A stretch of 34,403 bases of DNA from an uncultured Clostridia bacterium (GTDB taxonomy: Bacteria; Bacillota; Clostridia; Christensenellales; CAG-1252): NCBI GenBank assembly GCA_946625545.1, contig CAMOTC010000007.1, positions 1-34,403 on the forward strand. Reading direction: 5' to 3'. The position numbers and the translations under genes were made by a program. The notes beneath the pieces were generated by a model. That model was not told the origin of the DNA. It did not search any database and worked only from the letters and a program-made list of their open reading frames with translations. Within the stretch, counting starts at the first letter, position 1. Each line of letters starts with the position of its first letter. This document shows, piece by piece, positions 10,074 through 29,632 of this stretch.

Positions 10074-11435
10074 TTATTTCGAGAATTTTTTCTCCACCGC
10101 ATAAATCCCGAGGGAGCATTCGAGACGCTTTTTCATCATCTCGCATCCTGCACCGTAGGGGGTCAAAAGATCCTTCTCGTAGTAGTGCGAAGCCGCCACA
10201 CAGCCACCGCTGCAATAGTACTTCGCAAAACAAGACTCACACTTAGCCTTATTATTGACCGTTATCTCGCCGAACTTATCGGGGATCGCGAGATCAAATG
10301 TACCGTCAAGCACGTTGCCGATACGATAGTCGGCCTCCCCTACGAACTGATGGCATGGATAGATGTCCCCAACGGGAGAAACGGCGAGATAGCCGCAACC
10401 CGCAGAGCACCCCGAAAGCCTCTTCATAATGCAGGGTCCTTCCTCGAGATCGATCATGAAATGGAAGAAATTGAACCACTTCCCGCCCATTCGGCGATCG
10501 ATATACGCCTCGGCGAGAGCATCGTACTCGGCAAGGACCTTTCCGACCATGTCCGAAGTGATCGCCATCGGATTATCCTGCGGCAAGACCACAGGCTCGA
10601 CGGAGATCTGGTCAAATCCCGCATCCGCGAGAGCGAGAACGTCCTTGGAAAAGTCGAGATTATAAGCGGTAAAGGTGCCGCGGATATAGTAGCGCTTATC
10701 GCCGCGTACGGCGCGTAGTTTCTTCGCGGAGGAAAGGATGAGATCGTAGGCGTCGGCGCCGTTGCGCGTTTTACGCACGCGATTATGCACGTCGCGCCTG
10801 CCGTCGATACTGATCACGATATTATCCATCTCGCGATTGAGATATTCTATATTTTCATCCGTCAGAAGGAGAGCATTCGTCGTCATCGTGAAGCTAAACT
10901 CTTTCCCGTGCTTCGCCGCTTGCTCACGACCGTACTCCACGGCAAACTTCACGACCTTCATATTCATCAAAGGTTCGCCGCCGAAAAAGTCAATCTCGAG
11001 GCTCTTGCGACTGCCGCTCTTCGCGATCAGGAAGTCGATCGCCGCTTTCGCGACCTCCTCCGTCATATAGTCACGAGCGGTATTGTACGTCCCTTCCTTT
11101 GCAAAACAGTATTTGCATTGGAGATTACAGTCATGGCAGACGTGCAAGCACAGCGCCTTGACGATATCGGATTTTTTATAGGGGAAAGTGATATCGACGC
11201 CGAGAAGCCCTTGCTTTTCAAGCTCGGCGATCTCCGACTCGATCTCGAGAACGTCCGCGCTGTCTAAAGCGGAAAAGTCCGCAAGCTCTTGCGGACTCAA
11301 CTCTTCGTATTTATGCTTAATAACGAGATATGCCTTGTAATCAACCGAATGCAGACTATTGCTATACGGATGATAGACCAAGTAAAAAGTTTCACCTTTA
11401 TAGGTAAAGGGAAAACTATGGGTGATAAGCCTCAT
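10074..11435 (-). CDS. scfB: SCIFF peptide maturase, radical SAM/SPASM thioether-forming enzyme
   Basis: This 453-residue enzyme has an N-terminal peptide-recognition region (about 1-85) and a radical SAM core with CNLQCKYC (Cys103, Cys107, Cys110). The C-terminal SPASM region has cysteine clusters in CSAGCGYLAVSPVGDIYPC and CESCFAKYYCSGGC for auxiliary iron-sulfur clusters. In characterised homologues it joins a cysteine sulfur to a threonine in the SCIFF peptide, forming a thioether bond. The gene follows scfA after 3 bases, so substrate and enzyme are made together. The yajC/secDF location is the standard one in Clostridia. The biological role of the mature peptide is unknown. Confidence 0.95.
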   Translation of the reverse strand: MRLITHSFPFTYKGETFYLVYHPYSNSLHSVDYKAYLVIKHKYEELSPQELADFSALDSADVLEIESEIAELEKQGLLGVDITFPYKKSDIVKALCLHVCHDCNLQCKYCFAKEGTYNTARDYMTEEVAKAAIDFLIAKSGSRKSLEIDFFGGEPLMNMKVVKFAVEYGREQAAKHGKEFSFTMTTNALLLTDENIEYLNREMDNIVISIDGRRDVHNRVRKTRNGADAYDLILSSAKKLRAVRGDKRYYIRGTFTAYNLDFSKDVLALADAGFDQISVEPVVLPQDNPMAITSDMVGKVLAEYDALAEAYIDRRMGGKWFNFFHFMIDLEEGPCIMKRLSGCSAGCGYLAVSPVGDIYPCHQFVGEADYRIGNVLDGTFDLAIPDKFGEITVNNKAKCESCFAKYYCSGGCVAASHYYEKDLLTPYGAGCEMMKKRLECSLGIYAVEKKFSK

Positions 11436-23826: not shown

Positions 23827-25467
23827 TTACTCCGCCGATAAAATATAGAAAGAATGCGGCTGTTTTCCCTCGTAGAGGATCACTTCAAGGTCGGGAGAGA
23901 CCTCTCCGAGAGCCTCGACGAGCGCTTCCGCCCTCTCCTTGTCAACGCCCTCGCCGTAATATACGTTCAAGACGTCCATCTCGTCAAATCTCATCTTTTT
24001 GACAAGATCCACGGTCACGTCGTTTATATCCGAGCCCTTGACGAGGATCTTTTTATCCGACAAGCCGATGATCTCCCCTTTCTTCAAGGAAAGTCCGTCC
24101 ATATCGGTATCCCTGACGGCGGTGGTGACCTGGGCGCAAGTGACCGCACCGAAGGCCTCCGTCATCGCGGCGACGTTCTCATCGATCCCGAGGAGCGGAT
24201 CGTATGCGATGATCGCGGCGATGCCTGCCGCGACGTTCTCCGTCGACAGTACGACGGCATGACGCGAGGCAATATCCTTCGCCTTCTCCGCCGCAAGAAT
24301 GATATTCTTATTATTCGGCAAGACGATCACGTGATCGGCATTGACGCGATTGATCGCAGAGAGGATCTCGTTTACGCTGGGGTTCATCGTCTGCCCGCCC
24401 TCTACGATGATATCGACGCCGAGGTCGTGATATATCTTGCGCATCCCTTCTCCCGCACAGACGGCGACCATTCCGATGGGCTTTTTAGTCCTCTCGAGTT
24501 CCGCCTTGATCTTGCGATTTTGCTCAAGCATATTCTCGATCTTGACGCGGTCGAGCTCGCCGAGCTCAAGAGCGTAAGTGAGCGCCCTTCCGGGTTCATT
24601 GGTATGCACGTGCACTTTCACGAGGGAGAGATCGCCGATACAGATCAAGCTGTTACCGATCTTCGCGAGCCTCTCGCGCAGTTTCTCGATATCTCCATCG
24701 GTGGCGTCAGGACGGATATTCTTTACAAAAAACTCGGTACAATACGCAAATTCGATATTATCGAGGTCGTGGATGTCTGCGGCAAAGACCTTCTCCTCCG
24801 AGTCCGCGCTTTCGGCGCCGAGGGTGGATTTCGCGATCTTTTTCCCCGAGATAGCCATCTCAAATCCTTCAAAGACGTAGATAAGTCCGCTACCGCCCGC
24901 GTCGACCACACCCGCACTCTTCAGGATGGGGAGGAGATTCGGCGTGTCTTGGAGAGCGATGCGCCCTTCTTGCAGTATGACCTCAAAAAGTGACTCAAAG
25001 CCGACATCCTGCTTCTTGCTCGCCGAGACGGCACCCTCCGCGATCAAACGCATGACGGTGAGGATCGTACCTTCCTTCGGCTGATTGACGGCGCTATAGG
25101 CGATACGCGCGCTCTCGCCGAGAGCACGAGAAAAGACGTCGGGAGTGATCTCCCCCTCGAGAGGAGCGACCACGTCGGCGATCCCCTTATAGATCTGGGA
25201 GAGTATGACGCCGCTATTTCCCCTCGCTCCGCGAAGAGATGCGCCTCTCAACACTTTTGCAAATAAATCGTAGGTGAGATCCTTGTCGGAGATCGCGTTC
25301 AATTCGGACGCGGCGGTCTGCGCAGTCGCGCACATATTCGTACCCGTGTCACCATCGGGAACGGGAAACACGTTCTGCGCGTTGATCTCCTCCTCGTGGA
25401 CCGCTAAATTCTCAGCGGCGAGAAGAAACATTTCGCGTAGCGTGTTGATATTGATACTCTTTGTCAT
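23827..25467 (-). CDS. fakA: Fatty acid kinase catalytic subunit FakA (DAK2/DegV-like, YloV)
   Basis: FakA phosphorylates fatty acids held by a DegV-type FakB protein, feeding exogenous fatty acids into phospholipid synthesis. The 546-residue product has the DAK2 ATP-binding motifs FPVPDGDTGTNM (about 34-45) and GARGNSGVILSQI. A middle domain and a C-terminal DegV-like domain end in GKQPHSFYILSAE. The ATG at 25467 follows AGGAG; an upstream start would add 43 residues without similarity. In most Bacillota the Asp23-family gene yloU lies between rpmB and this gene; here it is missing and replaced by a 148-base leader. The gene faces away from rpmB. Confidence 0.92.
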   Translation of the reverse strand: MTKSININTLREMFLLAAENLAVHEEEINAQNVFPVPDGDTGTNMCATAQTAASELNAISDKDLTYDLFAKVLRGASLRGARGNSGVILSQIYKGIADVVAPLEGEITPDVFSRALGESARIAYSAVNQPKEGTILTVMRLIAEGAVSASKKQDVGFESLFEVILQEGRIALQDTPNLLPILKSAGVVDAGGSGLIYVFEGFEMAISGKKIAKSTLGAESADSEEKVFAADIHDLDNIEFAYCTEFFVKNIRPDATDGDIEKLRERLAKIGNSLICIGDLSLVKVHVHTNEPGRALTYALELGELDRVKIENMLEQNRKIKAELERTKKPIGMVAVCAGEGMRKIYHDLGVDIIVEGGQTMNPSVNEILSAINRVNADHVIVLPNNKNIILAAEKAKDIASRHAVVLSTENVAAGIAAIIAYDPLLGIDENVAAMTEAFGAVTCAQVTTAVRDTDMDGLSLKKGEIIGLSDKKILVKGSDINDVTVDLVKKMRFDEMDVLNVYYGEGVDKERAEALVEALGEVSPDLEVILYEGKQPHSFYILSAE

Positions 25468-25615
25468 AGTACTCCTACTTTCTGTCGAGACAGCCGGATA
25501 CGCAATGTGGAAAGGTGATCTCGACGAAATCCTATCGCAAAGGAAAAGCGGATAAACTCTCTCCCCGTACGTTATCGTGGCAAAGCCGCGCCGCAAGCTG
25601 TGCGCCCCGCCTTTT
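25468..25615 (-). promoter_or_regulatory. Long 5' leader of fakA, function unknown
   Basis: From the predicted start (about 25615) to the ATG there are 148 bases without a convincing ORF. Visible pairings are CGCA/TGCG and GGC/GCC near the 5' end, TCCT/AGGA in the middle and a longer GTCGAGA/TCTCGAC stem enclosing about 24 bases just before the ribosome site. I do not recognise a known riboswitch class. Confidence 0.4.
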
Positions 25616-25976: not shown

Positions 25977-25995
25977 TCATTATTTACCTGATAAA

Positions 25996-26025
25996 AAAAG
26001 GCGTAAGTCGATGCTTACGCCTTTT
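25996..26025. terminator. Bidirectional terminator between rpmB and the spoVM-like gene
   Basis: AAAAGGCGTAAG (25996-26007) pairs with CTTACGCCTTTT (26014-26025) around TCGATG. T tracts follow on both strands. The stop codon of the minus-strand small gene lies inside the stem. Confidence 0.9.
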
Positions 26026-26098
26026 TCTTTTTACAACCGCAAAAGTATCTCAATACTGCCCTGATGATCCGGGGCGGACGAAAACATATCATTCGCAA
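26015..26098 (-). CDS. spoVM: SpoVM-like small sporulation protein (27 residues, TTG start)
   Basis: A TTG at 26098 lies 8 bases after a perfect AAGGAGG (26113-26107) and opens 27 codons. The product reads MRMICFRPPRIIRAVLRYF and then a basic, Cys-containing end (CGCKKKKA). In Bacillus spoVM lies exactly here, between thiN and rpmB, and encodes a 26-residue amphipathic helix that marks the curved forespore membrane for coat assembly. The segment IIRAVLRYF parallels the Bacillus IVRAMLGSF and a proline precedes it, as Pro9 does in SpoVM. Compared with Bacillus about four residues are missing between the proline and that segment. Synteny plus motif make the call likely, not proven. Confidence 0.65.
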   Translation of the reverse strand: MRMICFRPPRIIRAVLRYFCGCKKKKA

Positions 26099-26115
26099 AT
26101 GGCGCACCTCCTTAC

Positions 26116-26712
26116 CTAAAAAGAATGGATCAGCAGGATGCCCTCCCCCTTCACGGATACGAAAACCTTCTCATCTATGCACACGTTAGAAAGCCCGCGC
26201 GTATCGTGCCGCGTCAAGGTCACACCCTCTGCCGGGTATTTGAGCCCCGTCGCCTTTATTATATGCGCGCTCTCGCCGAAAGGTACGATGGACAGCGTAT
26301 CACCCTTGGATACGCTGAGATACATCCCCCCTTCCGTATAATAGATATCGGAGTGATCGCCGCGTATGACCGCACGGATACCGAGGTCGTCGGCGATCTT
26401 TAAAAGATGCAGATTGTATAGAAAATGATCGGGTCTGCCACCCATCGCGCCGTAGATGTCGAGCGAAGTCAGCGAGCGTAACGCGGCGACGCGAATGCCG
26501 AGCTCGCCGTCAGAGAAGTCCTTTTCGACGGGGACTTCTACCCTTTCGACCTCCGTCGGCACGCGACCGAGACTGTCAAAATCGCCGACGATGAGATCCG
26601 GTTTTATCCCACGTTCTATCGCGCGAAGATATCCTGCGTCGGCAGCGATAACAAAGGGAGCCTCGAGATATCTCTCGAAAGGCTGAGATAGGATCAGAGC
26701 TCCTCTTCTCAT
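26116..26712 (-). CDS. thiN: Thiamine pyrophosphokinase
   Basis: ThiN transfers pyrophosphate from ATP to thiamine, making the cofactor thiamine diphosphate. The 198 residues show ADAGYLRAIERGIKPDLIVGDFDSLG, KDFSDGELGIR and GAMGGRPDHFLYNLHLL, the nucleotide- and thiamine-binding motifs of the family. The start overlaps the rpe stop by 4 bases. The spoVM-like gene follows 17 bases on, the usual Bacillota order. Confidence 0.94.
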   Translation of the reverse strand: MRRGALILSQPFERYLEAPFVIAADAGYLRAIERGIKPDLIVGDFDSLGRVPTEVERVEVPVEKDFSDGELGIRVAALRSLTSLDIYGAMGGRPDHFLYNLHLLKIADDLGIRAVIRGDHSDIYYTEGGMYLSVSKGDTLSIVPFGESAHIIKATGLKYPAEGVTLTRHDTRGLSNVCIDEKVFVSVKGEGILLIHSF

Positions 26713-27359
26713 CCTCTCATCACGCGAATCGCGCGTGCGGGATCCTCCGCCTTAAAAGTCGCACTTCCCGCGACGAGCACTGTGATACCGAGAGAGCGAA
26801 ATCTCTCCGCATTGGTCTCGGTGACGCCACCATCCAGCTCAAGCAGGATATCACGTCCGCTCTCGTCTATCTTCTTACGGAAAAGCACGATATTATCCGA
26901 TACGCTCTCGATGTAAGACTGTCCGCCGAAACCGGGGAAAACGCCCATAAGAACGATCATATCCACGAGATCCATATATGGCTCGACAAGGGAGAAGTCC
27001 TTATCGGGATTGACGACCAAACCGCACTTTTTTCCCTTCGCCTTGATCTTTAGGAGTGCGTCGCGGGCATCCTTGCTCGCTTCGGGGTGAAAGGTGACGA
27101 TATCGGCGCCCGCATCGCAGAAGCGCTCGACGTATTTCTCGGGCTCCGTGATCATAAGATGCACGTCGAGAGGGAGCGTCGTATAGGGACGGATCGCTTT
27201 CACCATCGGCATGCCAAATGTGATATTGGGCACGAACACCCCGTCCATAACGTCACAGTGCACGAGATCCGCCCCCCACTTCTCGACGTTGGCGACGGTT
27301 TCTCCCATCCCGGCGAAGTCTCCCGAAAGAATAGACGGTGCGATACTGCAATTACTCAT
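26709..27359 (-). CDS. rpe: Ribulose-phosphate 3-epimerase
   Basis: Rpe interconverts ribulose 5-phosphate and xylulose 5-phosphate in the pentose phosphate pathway. The 216-residue TIM barrel has IAPSILSGDFAGMGE, VHCDVMDGVFVPNITFG, DVHLMI, the GFGGQ loop and ELDGGVTETN, which hold the metal and phosphate ligands. The ATG follows GGAGG. It directly follows rlmN with a 9-base gap; the genes prpC, prkC and rsgA that normally stand between them are absent. Confidence 0.97.
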   Translation of the reverse strand: MSNCSIAPSILSGDFAGMGETVANVEKWGADLVHCDVMDGVFVPNITFGMPMVKAIRPYTTLPLDVHLMITEPEKYVERFCDAGADIVTFHPEASKDARDALLKIKAKGKKCGLVVNPDKDFSLVEPYMDLVDMIVLMGVFPGFGGQSYIESVSDNIVLFRKKIDESGRDILLELDGGVTETNAERFRSLGITVLVAGSATFKAEDPARAIRVMRG

Positions 27360-27368
27360 AGTCTCCTC

Positions 27369-28412
27369 CTACTGTTTATTGATATATTTCGCGCGGAGTT
27401 GTCCGCATGCTCCTTCGATATCCGCTCCCATCGTGCGACGAACGGTGATCTGCACTCCCCCCTTCTCGAGGAGTCCCGAGAAACGATACGCCTCCTTGCG
27501 CGAGGTCGATGCCAAGCCGCGCTCCTTGACGTAATTCAATACGATCAGGTTCACAATACAGGGAAAGCCTTTCACCTTTTCGATAAGGAGCGCCGCATCC
27601 TCTTGGCTGTCGTTTACCCCTTTAATGAGCGAATACTCAAATACGACGCGGCGTTTGGTCTTTTCAAAAAACCTCTTTGCGGCGTCGATCACCTTATCCA
27701 CACCGTACTTCTTATTGACGGGCATGATCGAGGAACGCACCTCGTCGGATGCCGCGTGTAGGGAAAACGTCATCGTGATAGGGATATCTTCTCCCAAGAA
27801 GCGATCGAAGGCGTCGATCAAGCCGCAAGTCGAGAGCGAGATATTTCGATAGCTGATATTCAGCCCTTTCTCCGCATTGACAAGACGCAGAAATTTGACG
27901 GTATTATCGTAATTATCGAGTGGCTCTCCGCTCCCCATCAGTACAACGTTAGTGATCTTGCGGTTGGTGAGATCGCCCCCGTCGAACCGATTGGCGGCTA
28001 TGACCTCGCCGAGGATCTCCCCCGCCGTCAGATTTCGCTTCAATCCCTCGAGCCCCGAAGCGCAAAAGGCGCAGTTCATACGGCATCCGACCTGCGTGGA
28101 AATGCAGAGGGTATTGCCGTACTTATAGCGCATCAGCACCCCTTCGACGATATTACCGTCCATGAGCTCGTAAAGAAACTTGACTGTGCCGTCTATCTTG
28201 GACACGAAACTCTCGAGGATATTTACGCCGCGAGCGACGTATCCGTCTGCGAGCAAGCGCTCCTTGAACGCCTTTCCGATATTCGTCATTTCGGGATAAT
28301 CCTTGCCTGCGTAGAGGTTAAGATAGAGCTGCTCCGCGCGAAAAGCGGGCTCCCCGTAGGACGCCGTCAATTCTTTCAATTCGTCGAGAGAATAATCGGT
28401 CAGCAATTTCAT
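27369..28412 (-). CDS. rlmN: Dual-specificity 23S rRNA/tRNA methyltransferase RlmN
   Basis: RlmN is a radical SAM enzyme that methylates C2 of A2503 in 23S rRNA and A37 of some tRNAs. With the ATG at 28412 the protein has 347 residues. Its 4Fe-4S motif is CRMNCAFC (Cys110, Cys114, Cys117), and the catalytic C-terminal cysteine is in GACGQLRAKY. A TTG at 28433 would add seven residues, but the ATG has GAGGAA close upstream and overlaps the rsmB stop in ATGA, so it is preferred. Confidence 0.96.
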   Translation of the reverse strand: MKLLTDYSLDELKELTASYGEPAFRAEQLYLNLYAGKDYPEMTNIGKAFKERLLADGYVARGVNILESFVSKIDGTVKFLYELMDGNIVEGVLMRYKYGNTLCISTQVGCRMNCAFCASGLEGLKRNLTAGEILGEVIAANRFDGGDLTNRKITNVVLMGSGEPLDNYDNTVKFLRLVNAEKGLNISYRNISLSTCGLIDAFDRFLGEDIPITMTFSLHAASDEVRSSIMPVNKKYGVDKVIDAAKRFFEKTKRRVVFEYSLIKGVNDSQEDAALLIEKVKGFPCIVNLIVLNYVKERGLASTSRKEAYRFSGLLEKGGVQITVRRTMGADIEGACGQLRAKYINKQ

Positions 28413-29632
28413 TTCTTCCTCATCACAGCGCAATAGTATGACTCCCCGCCACCCTTGATAGGATCGGTATGCTTCTCCTTTTCCAATGAAAAGTCGTTTC
28501 TATTCTCCAATAGTGACCTGACGATCGATTCATCCTCGGAGGGGAGATCGGAGCAGGTAGCGTACACGAGCACGCCTCCCGCGGCGACGTATTCCGCGGC
28601 AACGGAGATCAGCTCTCTTTGGAGCTTGATGATCTCTTCGACGTCCTCTTTCGTCCTATGTAATACGACGTCTTGATTGGTCGCGAGCGAACCGAAGCCG
28701 GAACACGGCGCATCGAGGAAAACCACGGGGAACTGCCCTTTCCACTCGGGGATCAGATCTCTCGCGTCCAAAAGGATCGTGGAGATCCCTTTTGCGTTGA
28801 TCGTCCGCGCGTATTCCTTGATCAGCTTTACGCGGTGGATATACTTATCGCAAGAGACCACCTTTGCACCGTATTTCTCGGCAAAATAGATGCTCTTTCC
28901 TCCCGGTGCGGCGCAGAGATCGAGGATCATACCCCCCTCGTACGGAACGCTCTCGCAGACGTCGATACTGCTCCAAGCCATCGCCGTCGCCTTGCCTTCG
29001 ATATAGAGACCGTGCCACTTGCAGTCGCCGCCTATATAGAAGCCGTACTCCGTCTCCTCGTAGATGCACTTCATCTCGTCGAGCGCCTGCTTGAGCGCCT
29101 CTTTTCCAAAGCTTCGAGCGGGACGGATATGCGCCTTTTCGGTCTTTACGGTCAGAAGGCGCCTGCTTGCTTCCTCCATACCGAGTTCATTTATATAGCG
29201 ATCGACCTGCCAGCGCGGACGATTTGCTCGAGCGGCGAGATTTTCGACGGGATCCTCGGGATAAAGCTCGCGCCCTTCCCGCGCATAACGACGTAGGACA
29301 GCGTTGACAAAGCCGCTGACTCCCCGCTTCCCGACCACCTTCGTCATCTCGGTAACGTCGTTCACGACGGCGTATTCGGGGATATTGAAGACGTCGAGGA
29401 GCGCCATGCCGATCTTCAGTATGATCTTAACGGAGGTCTTTGGCGGACGGTCTGTCAAGCGGGAGATCCTATACTCGGTCAGATAGTCGCGCTCCACCAC
29501 CGTATGTACGAGACGGAAATACATCGGCTCCATCATAAACCCGGGGAGATGATGCTTGATCGCCTCGCCTATCCAACTGCCCTTCGTATAGATATCGGAC
29601 AGCGCGTAGTAAACCGCGGGACTGATCACCAT
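28409..29632 (-). CDS. rsmB: 16S rRNA (cytosine-C5) methyltransferase RsmB
   Basis: RsmB methylates C967 of 16S rRNA. The 407 residues comprise an N-terminal NusB-like RNA-binding domain (about 1-140) and a Rossmann methyltransferase domain. Its motifs are LDLCAAPGGKSIYFAEKYGA (SAM binding), FLDAPCSGFGSL (motif IV cysteine) and VYATCSDLPSED (motif VI cysteine, catalytic). The start overlaps the fmt stop by 7 bases. The order fmt-rsmB-rlmN is standard. Confidence 0.96.
   Translation of the reverse strand: MVISPAVYYALSDIYTKGSWIGEAIKHHLPGFMMEPMYFRLVHTVVERDYLTEYRISRLTDRPPKTSVKIILKIGMALLDVFNIPEYAVVNDVTEMTKVVGKRGVSGFVNAVLRRYAREGRELYPEDPVENLAARANRPRWQVDRYINELGMEEASRRLLTVKTEKAHIRPARSFGKEALKQALDEMKCIYEETEYGFYIGGDCKWHGLYIEGKATAMAWSSIDVCESVPYEGGMILDLCAAPGGKSIYFAEKYGAKVVSCDKYIHRVKLIKEYARTINAKGISTILLDARDLIPEWKGQFPVVFLDAPCSGFGSLATNQDVVLHRTKEDVEEIIKLQRELISVAAEYVAAGGVLVYATCSDLPSEDESIVRSLLENRNDFSLEKEKHTDPIKGGGESYYCAVMRKK

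Follow-up and report, generated by a model that had tools for sequence, protein, structure and literature searches.

A spoVM gene with a predicted SigK-type promoter inside thiN in a probably spore-forming clostridial lineage

The window analyzed here, i.e., the whole 34,403-nucleotide stretch of DNA, belongs to an uncultured Clostridia bacterium, whose draft genome measures 1.45 Mb at 81% completeness and has this stretch as contig 7. The named records nearest to the rpe gene of the window were "Christensenella sp. UBA3798", at 95% identity, and genomes of rumen "Clostridia bacterium". On the minus strand, flanked by thiN (thiamine diphosphokinase; 26116..26712, minus strand; TIGR01378 at 122.7 bits, PF04263/PF04265) and by the convergent rpmB (ribosomal protein L28; 25776..25976, plus strand; TIGR00009), lies a 27-codon gene (26015..26098) with a TTG start and a TAA stop, which we regard as almost certainly a real spoVM, encoding the short peptide by which endospore formers anchor their spore coat. 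Its start is 17 nt from the thiN stop, and its product, (M)RMICFRPPRIIRAVLRYFCGCKKKKA, is 27 aa long. Two further neighbors are syntenic: rpe (ribulose-phosphate 3-epimerase; 26709..27359, minus strand; TIGR01163) and a yloV/fakA-like gene (23827..25596, minus strand; TIGR03599), whose coordinates are those of the longest frame, the true start probably being further in. Directly upstream of rpe stands rlmN (the pair at 26709-28433; names read from the open reading frames), with no prpC-prkC-rsgA between the two; in B. subtilis, these three genes presumably stand between rlmN and rpe. An earlier note on this DNA had recognized the gene place as typical of spoVM, and the adjoining rpmB supports this, closeness to rpmB being described as conserved in the excerpted text of PMC5607322.

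A ribosome-binding site, AGGAGGTG (26105..26112, minus strand), is found 6 nt ahead of the TTG. The combination AGGAGGTG-N6-TTG (26096-26112, minus strand) occurs once in the window, for a mean of 0.01 in shuffled sequences, and AGGAGGT is kept across the genus loci, consistent with the ideal ribosome site described earlier. We searched 61 related genomes for thiN and inspected the DNA downstream of it: the peptide, its TTG start, and the AGGAGGT site were all present in 12/12 loci of the genus where thiN was found. The earlier claim of a SpoVM-like gene with a TTG start is thus upheld by a frame that is open, under selection, and conserved in all of these loci, and its proposed check for relatives with a broken frame returned intact frames in each of the 12. 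The start codon is TTG in L021 and L023 as well, two additional loci from the same family, and since L017, L020, L021, and L023 offer no other in-frame start codon nearby, we take it to be the start of spoVM. Across 58 named loci (E < 0.01), there were 37 ATG and 12 TTG starts, with ATG prevailing in other families; the remaining nine reflect a slipped register, with ATG as the preceding codon, and three of them are in L101. The pairing of a weak TTG with a very strong ribosome site, both conserved, suggests that the dose of this membrane-active peptide may be tuned.

We compared the peptide to proteins of known structure through a profile, A1, made of 22 peptides of 21–30 aa. Among 177,635 distinct PDB sequences, A1 had one match, B. 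subtilis SpoVM (2MVH), with a weak E-value of 0.076 that would not be significant by itself, although no other match appeared up to E = 10. The alignment of the two is gapless over M1 to R17, with the prolines at position 9 in register. Since this alignment leaves no room for the loss of about four residues after the proline that had been proposed earlier, that part of the note is not confirmed: the peptide is full length, and a four-residue deletion is rejected. According to the excerpts of PMC5607322, K2, I6, and I15 are functionally critical in SpoVM, and the aligned SpoVMs all share a single conserved residue, Pro9. Here, the residues that are critical in B. subtilis are retained or replaced conservatively (K2 to R, I6 to F, P9, and I15 to V), and M1 and P9 are the sole invariant columns of the A1 alignment (Pro9 in 22/22 peptides), with C5 and L16 nearly so. 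Residues 10–20 displayed a hydrophobic moment of 0.96, equalled by 0.2% of shuffles, indicating an amphipathic helix after Pro9. The length of 27 aa fits the SpoVM size class (26 aa in B. subtilis), given as "<30 aa" in PMC3533761, the excerpted text of which also describes spoVM as seldom annotated and leaves its presence in distant clostridia open. At column 5, the SpoVM of the host order carries a nearly invariant Cys, where B. subtilis has Thr; Cys5 is thus an order-wide feature and not a species-specific one.

Overall, the likeness to B. subtilis SpoVM (2MVH) covers length, gapless N-terminal alignment, Pro9, a basic residue 2, the amphipathic helix, rpmB adjacency, and co-occurrence with SpoIVA. 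The peptide differs in having Cys5 for Thr5, a Pro8-Pro9 pair, and a Lys-rich tail read from a terminator, and in escaping PF08183, while the gene differs in its TTG start, its predicted promoter within thiN, and predicted control by SigK instead of SigE. C. difficile SpoVM, as far as it is described in the excerpts of PMC5607322, is similarly clostridial, near rpmB, and accompanied by a SpoIVA partner gene, but its gene is co-transcribed with CD25622 under SigE, whereas the one studied here adjoins thiN and has a SigK-type element.

Existing models do not recover this peptide: PF08183 at its curated cut-off had no match in the source genome and matched 0/22 A1 members (one of 14 control genomes passed), and no NCBIfam model matches the peptide. 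With A1, in contrast, it was found in 43 of the 61 relatives at E ≤ 1e-3; 22 of these had supplied A1 itself, and the other 21 were among the 39 genomes outside A1. We also examined co-occurrence in 297 genomes of the host order, a set overlapping the 61 relatives: SpoVM (E ≤ 0.01) was detected in 159/246 SpoIVA-positive and 10/51 SpoIVA-negative genomes (Fisher p = 5e-9, uncorrected for relatedness). No SpoVM match was obtained for 87 of the 246, and several of the ten SpoVM-positive, SpoIVA-negative genomes are incomplete. Selection on the frame was evaluated from 12 spoVM sequences of the genus over 21 codons: pS was 0.698 and pN 0.276 in frame, while the two shifted frames gave pS/pN of 0.352/0.355 and 0.268/0.374 (pN/pS of about 1.0 and 1.4). 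For comparison, thiN displayed pS/pN of 0.675/0.236. The spoVM frame is under purifying selection.

The same genome encodes SpoIVA (E = 4.4e-111), SpoVAD (E = 2.8e-131), GPR (E = 5.3e-29), and SpoIIE (E = 2.2e-72, yet under the NCBIfam cut-off), and carries sigE, sigG, and sigK on contig 5. The other sporulation genes that the earlier note had proposed to look for are hence present, and from spoIVA, spoIIE, gpr, spoVAD, sigE, and sigK we conclude that sporulation capacity is likely, as that note had suggested. Spo0A did not reach the cut-off in the present, incomplete draft and exceeded it in 9/13 genus genomes. The spore programme is perhaps unusual. GPR is the protease that degrades small acid-soluble proteins (SASPs) in germination; the alpha/beta-type SASP model (PF00269) had no match in any of the 13 genus genomes (G000-G012), though GPR is present in 13/13. 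The three sigma factor genes form one cluster (L175, 2863-6902, G000:C5), in which the genes between sigG and sigK are presumably nrdR-like and pseudouridine-synthase-like. Another genome, G025, had two SpoIVA matches spanning the whole profile, on contigs 265 and 128.

Downstream, spoVM and rpmB converge on a terminator hairpin serving both strands (25995..26026), identified by fold and terminator pattern. It folds at −19.4 kcal/mol on the minus strand and −18.4 kcal/mol on the plus strand, with z below −4.6 and no shuffle as good. The spoVM stop sits in its 5' arm, so that the stop within a shared terminator noted earlier is confirmed. A tail running into the stem had been described as well: this is the case here and does not extend to the genus as a whole, the last residues (K-A or K-K-A) being read from the stem in 5/12 genus loci (L009, L010, L011, L014, and L015) while in the other seven the frame ends elsewhere. 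Given this distribution, the Lys-rich tail is partly a by-product of the terminator and a local feature.

Upstream, a predicted SigK-type mother-cell promoter of spoVM lies within the thiN coding sequence (26258..26286, minus strand): GTACC..., a 17-nt spacer, and CATATAAT. Specifically, the AC is at 26284-26283 and CATATAAT at 26265-26258, and the element (GTACCTT...GCATATAAT, 26258-26286, minus strand) stands about 160 nt ahead of the spoVM start. When synonymous sites were scanned along thiN in the genus, codons 142–159 stood out: of 188 windows, the top 10 were all located there, and codon identity at the element reached 0.85 for a gene mean of 0.50. Other families display GT[A/C]AC-N17-CATANNAT, mostly 22–44 nt in front of spoVM. 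We assembled 71 non-redundant spoVM loci from the 22 loci of the thiN search and a subset of 80 named loci (SpoVM match at E ≤ 0.03, copies dropped). AC-N17-CATA was present in 57 of them, proximal in 39 and inside thiN in 18, while shuffled controls had a mean of 0.91 and a maximum of 5. Since AC-N17-CATA was read off the same data, and the position ranges were chosen after data inspection, these counts describe the set and are no independent test. The ATA-type site was found in 0/71 loci in the position ranges examined. In the other 14 loci, the element is missing at the register and ranges chosen; some of them have it with N15 or N16, or at another distance. A scan of 250 nt upstream for SigE-type sites by consensus indicated one position common to most thiN-abutting loci, with little significance relative to shuffles, and it was this position that was then examined for synonymous conservation, and sigma-70 patterns near spoVM gave five matches, none of which was used. 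On these data, we hold with good confidence that the spoVM promoter lies inside thiN.

As host to this element, thiN seems to bear its mark. The −10 CATATAAT encodes His-Ile-[Ile/Leu/Met] in ThiN, and this tripeptide, encoded via CATAT, was present in 22/22 thiN genes abutting spoVM (gap ≤40 nt) and 0/10 non-abutting ones. Family f15 holds both kinds, L028 with an abutting spoVM and the motif and L030 with neither. Because spoVM adjacency is clustered on the tree, these 32 cases are not independent. In L027, L028, and L031, the −10 within thiN is retained but no AC stands in register there. We predict from this pattern that the −10 dictates three ThiN residues, which would mean that a spore gene has shaped the adjoining enzyme.

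Which mother-cell sigma factor reads the element can be examined from its −35 region. A single −35 base separates SigE promoters, which have T, from SigK promoters, which have C; this base is read by Gln217 in SigE and by Arg in SigK (PMC517825, excerpted text), and C. difficile promoters are given in ATA (SigE) and AC (SigK) forms in the excerpts of PMC3789822. The source genome encodes both a SigE with GISQSYIS and a SigK with GISRSYIS, i.e., with the diagnostic Gln and Arg. We take the CATA-type −10 to be that of SigK promoters. For spoIVA, candidate upstream regions came from 10 stretches, 17 real ones of a further 20 (three were 100-base placeholders), and loci L001-L008; excluding L181, L184, L191, L192, L002, L005, and L007 (start unreadable) as well as L003/L004 left 26 regions of the host order. 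The SigE form, ATA-N16-C[A/G]TA, was detected in 16/26, the AC form in 0/26, and neither type in 10/26; the spoIVA upstream region of the source genome is outside this sample, as its contig begins there. In the genus, ATA was present in 10/10 regions. These same regions (L161-L170) all display a −10 variant, CGTATAAA (CGTATATA once), replacing CATA. The regions upstream of sigK and sigE were scanned for both promoter types and had neither. Judged by their AC and ATA forms, spoVM looks SigK-type and spoIVA SigE-type within one clade. The spoVM promoter is thus probably a SigK rather than a SigE promoter, and late timing is predicted. Its −35 AC, with the SigK-specific C and a matching Arg in the genome's SigK, resembles the SigK-type promoters described in the excerpts of PMC517825 and PMC3789822; unlike those, it is embedded in a metabolic gene, and the gene it serves is a SigE regulon member in the two species studied there. 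Indeed, both spoVM and spoIVA are under SigE in B. subtilis and C. difficile (excerpts of PMC517825, PMC3789822, and PMC5607322). A literature search covering Christensenella-type SpoVM and SASPs, spoVM with thiN, and clostridial spoVM with SigK returned, among the matches listed, no paper describing the layout seen here, and one for promoter consensus strings had no match.

Taken together, we hold with good confidence that this locus holds the spoVM of a gut-associated clostridial lineage that probably forms spores, with a SigK-type promoter inside thiN and a terminator common to rpmB. Transcription of spoVM would start from AC-N17-CATATAAT inside thiN, about 160 nt upstream, late in the mother cell and from a promoter unlike the putative SigE-type one ahead of spoIVA, and would end at the hairpin shared with rpmB, the stem of which would encode the last residues. 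The SpoVM helix is described in excerpts of PMC12004969 and PMC9542656 as inserting in the outer forespore membrane, preferring its convex side via Pro9, and binding SpoIVA. By analogy, the amphipathic helix of the present peptide (residues 10 to about 22, after the Pro9 kink) would lie on the convex outer forespore membrane, on the mother-cell side, and the membrane-bound peptide may, as in B. subtilis and C. difficile, bind SpoIVA and help tether the coat.

The main rival to a SigK shift is cross-recognition by SigE: SigE, alone or together with SigK, would recognize the AC-type element, with timing as in B. subtilis. Some SigK promoters are also recognized by SigE (PMC517825, excerpted text), spoVM is SigE-dependent in both B. 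subtilis and C. difficile, and the −10 is common to the two promoter types. However, spoIVA in the genus has ATA at the same register in all 10 upstream regions, the genome's SigE retains the T-reading Gln, and no ATA-type site precedes spoVM in the ranges covering the 71 loci, so that we see SigE reading as unlikely, if still a serious contender. Alternatively, the bases in thiN could be kept by protein or codon constraint on ThiN itself, with spoVM being simply the last gene of a thiN operon. The element does lie wholly within coding sequence, and the spoVM start, at most 40 nt past the thiN stop, is within read-through range. Against this, it is synonymous sites that are conserved exactly at the element, non-abutting thiN genes differ at this position (0/10, including the contrast of L028 and L030 within f15), and in other families these two blocks recur as proximal DNA, 22–44 nt before spoVM. 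We therefore judge constraint on ThiN improbable as the explanation, and retain a SigK-type promoter within thiN as the preferred reading.

Two other possibilities concern the gene and not its promoter. Loss of sporulation, leaving a decaying spoVM relic, would fit the absence of PF00269 SASPs from 13 genus genomes, the small genomes, and a Spo0A below cut-off in this draft. Yet frame, start, ribosome site, and purifying selection are kept in 12/12 loci, SpoIVA, SpoIIE, GPR, SpoVAD, and both mother-cell sigma factors are present, and Spo0A is over the cut-off in 9/13 genus genomes, all of which makes decay very hard to credit. As for the frame being open by chance, the gene between thiN and the terminator has just 27 codons, a non-ATG start, and no curated model match, but conservation in the 12 genus loci, selection, SpoIVA co-occurrence, and homology already refute it, leaving it next to no probability.

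The gene itself is ordinary; its regulatory layout is unexpected. Beyond this locus, we place even weight on a wider proposal drawn from the upstream sequences, in which spoVM would have moved from SigE to SigK across the order, making SpoVM a late protein, and selection on the −10 would have fixed three ThiN residues in several families. If so, SpoIVA would already be in place when SpoVM is produced, and SpoVM could not serve as the coat's founding landmark; it would act late, in encasement or the cortex. In the standing model, SpoVM marks curvature and recruits SpoIVA, yet C. difficile barely needs SpoVM (excerpts of PMC9542656 and PMC5607322). A switch to SigK, if true, would provide a direct reason for this and an order of events that can be tested. 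The promoter embedded in thiN would be a clean case of a regulatory site dictating residues in an enzyme unrelated to it, and the thiN genes without spoVM behind them would be its internal control. In addition, spoVM is recovered across an order where PF08183 misses it (22 peptides tested). Elsewhere in the window, a radical-SAM protein (10074-11435), which we take to resemble the maturase of the clostridial SCIFF peptide, is encoded beside secDF and yajC.
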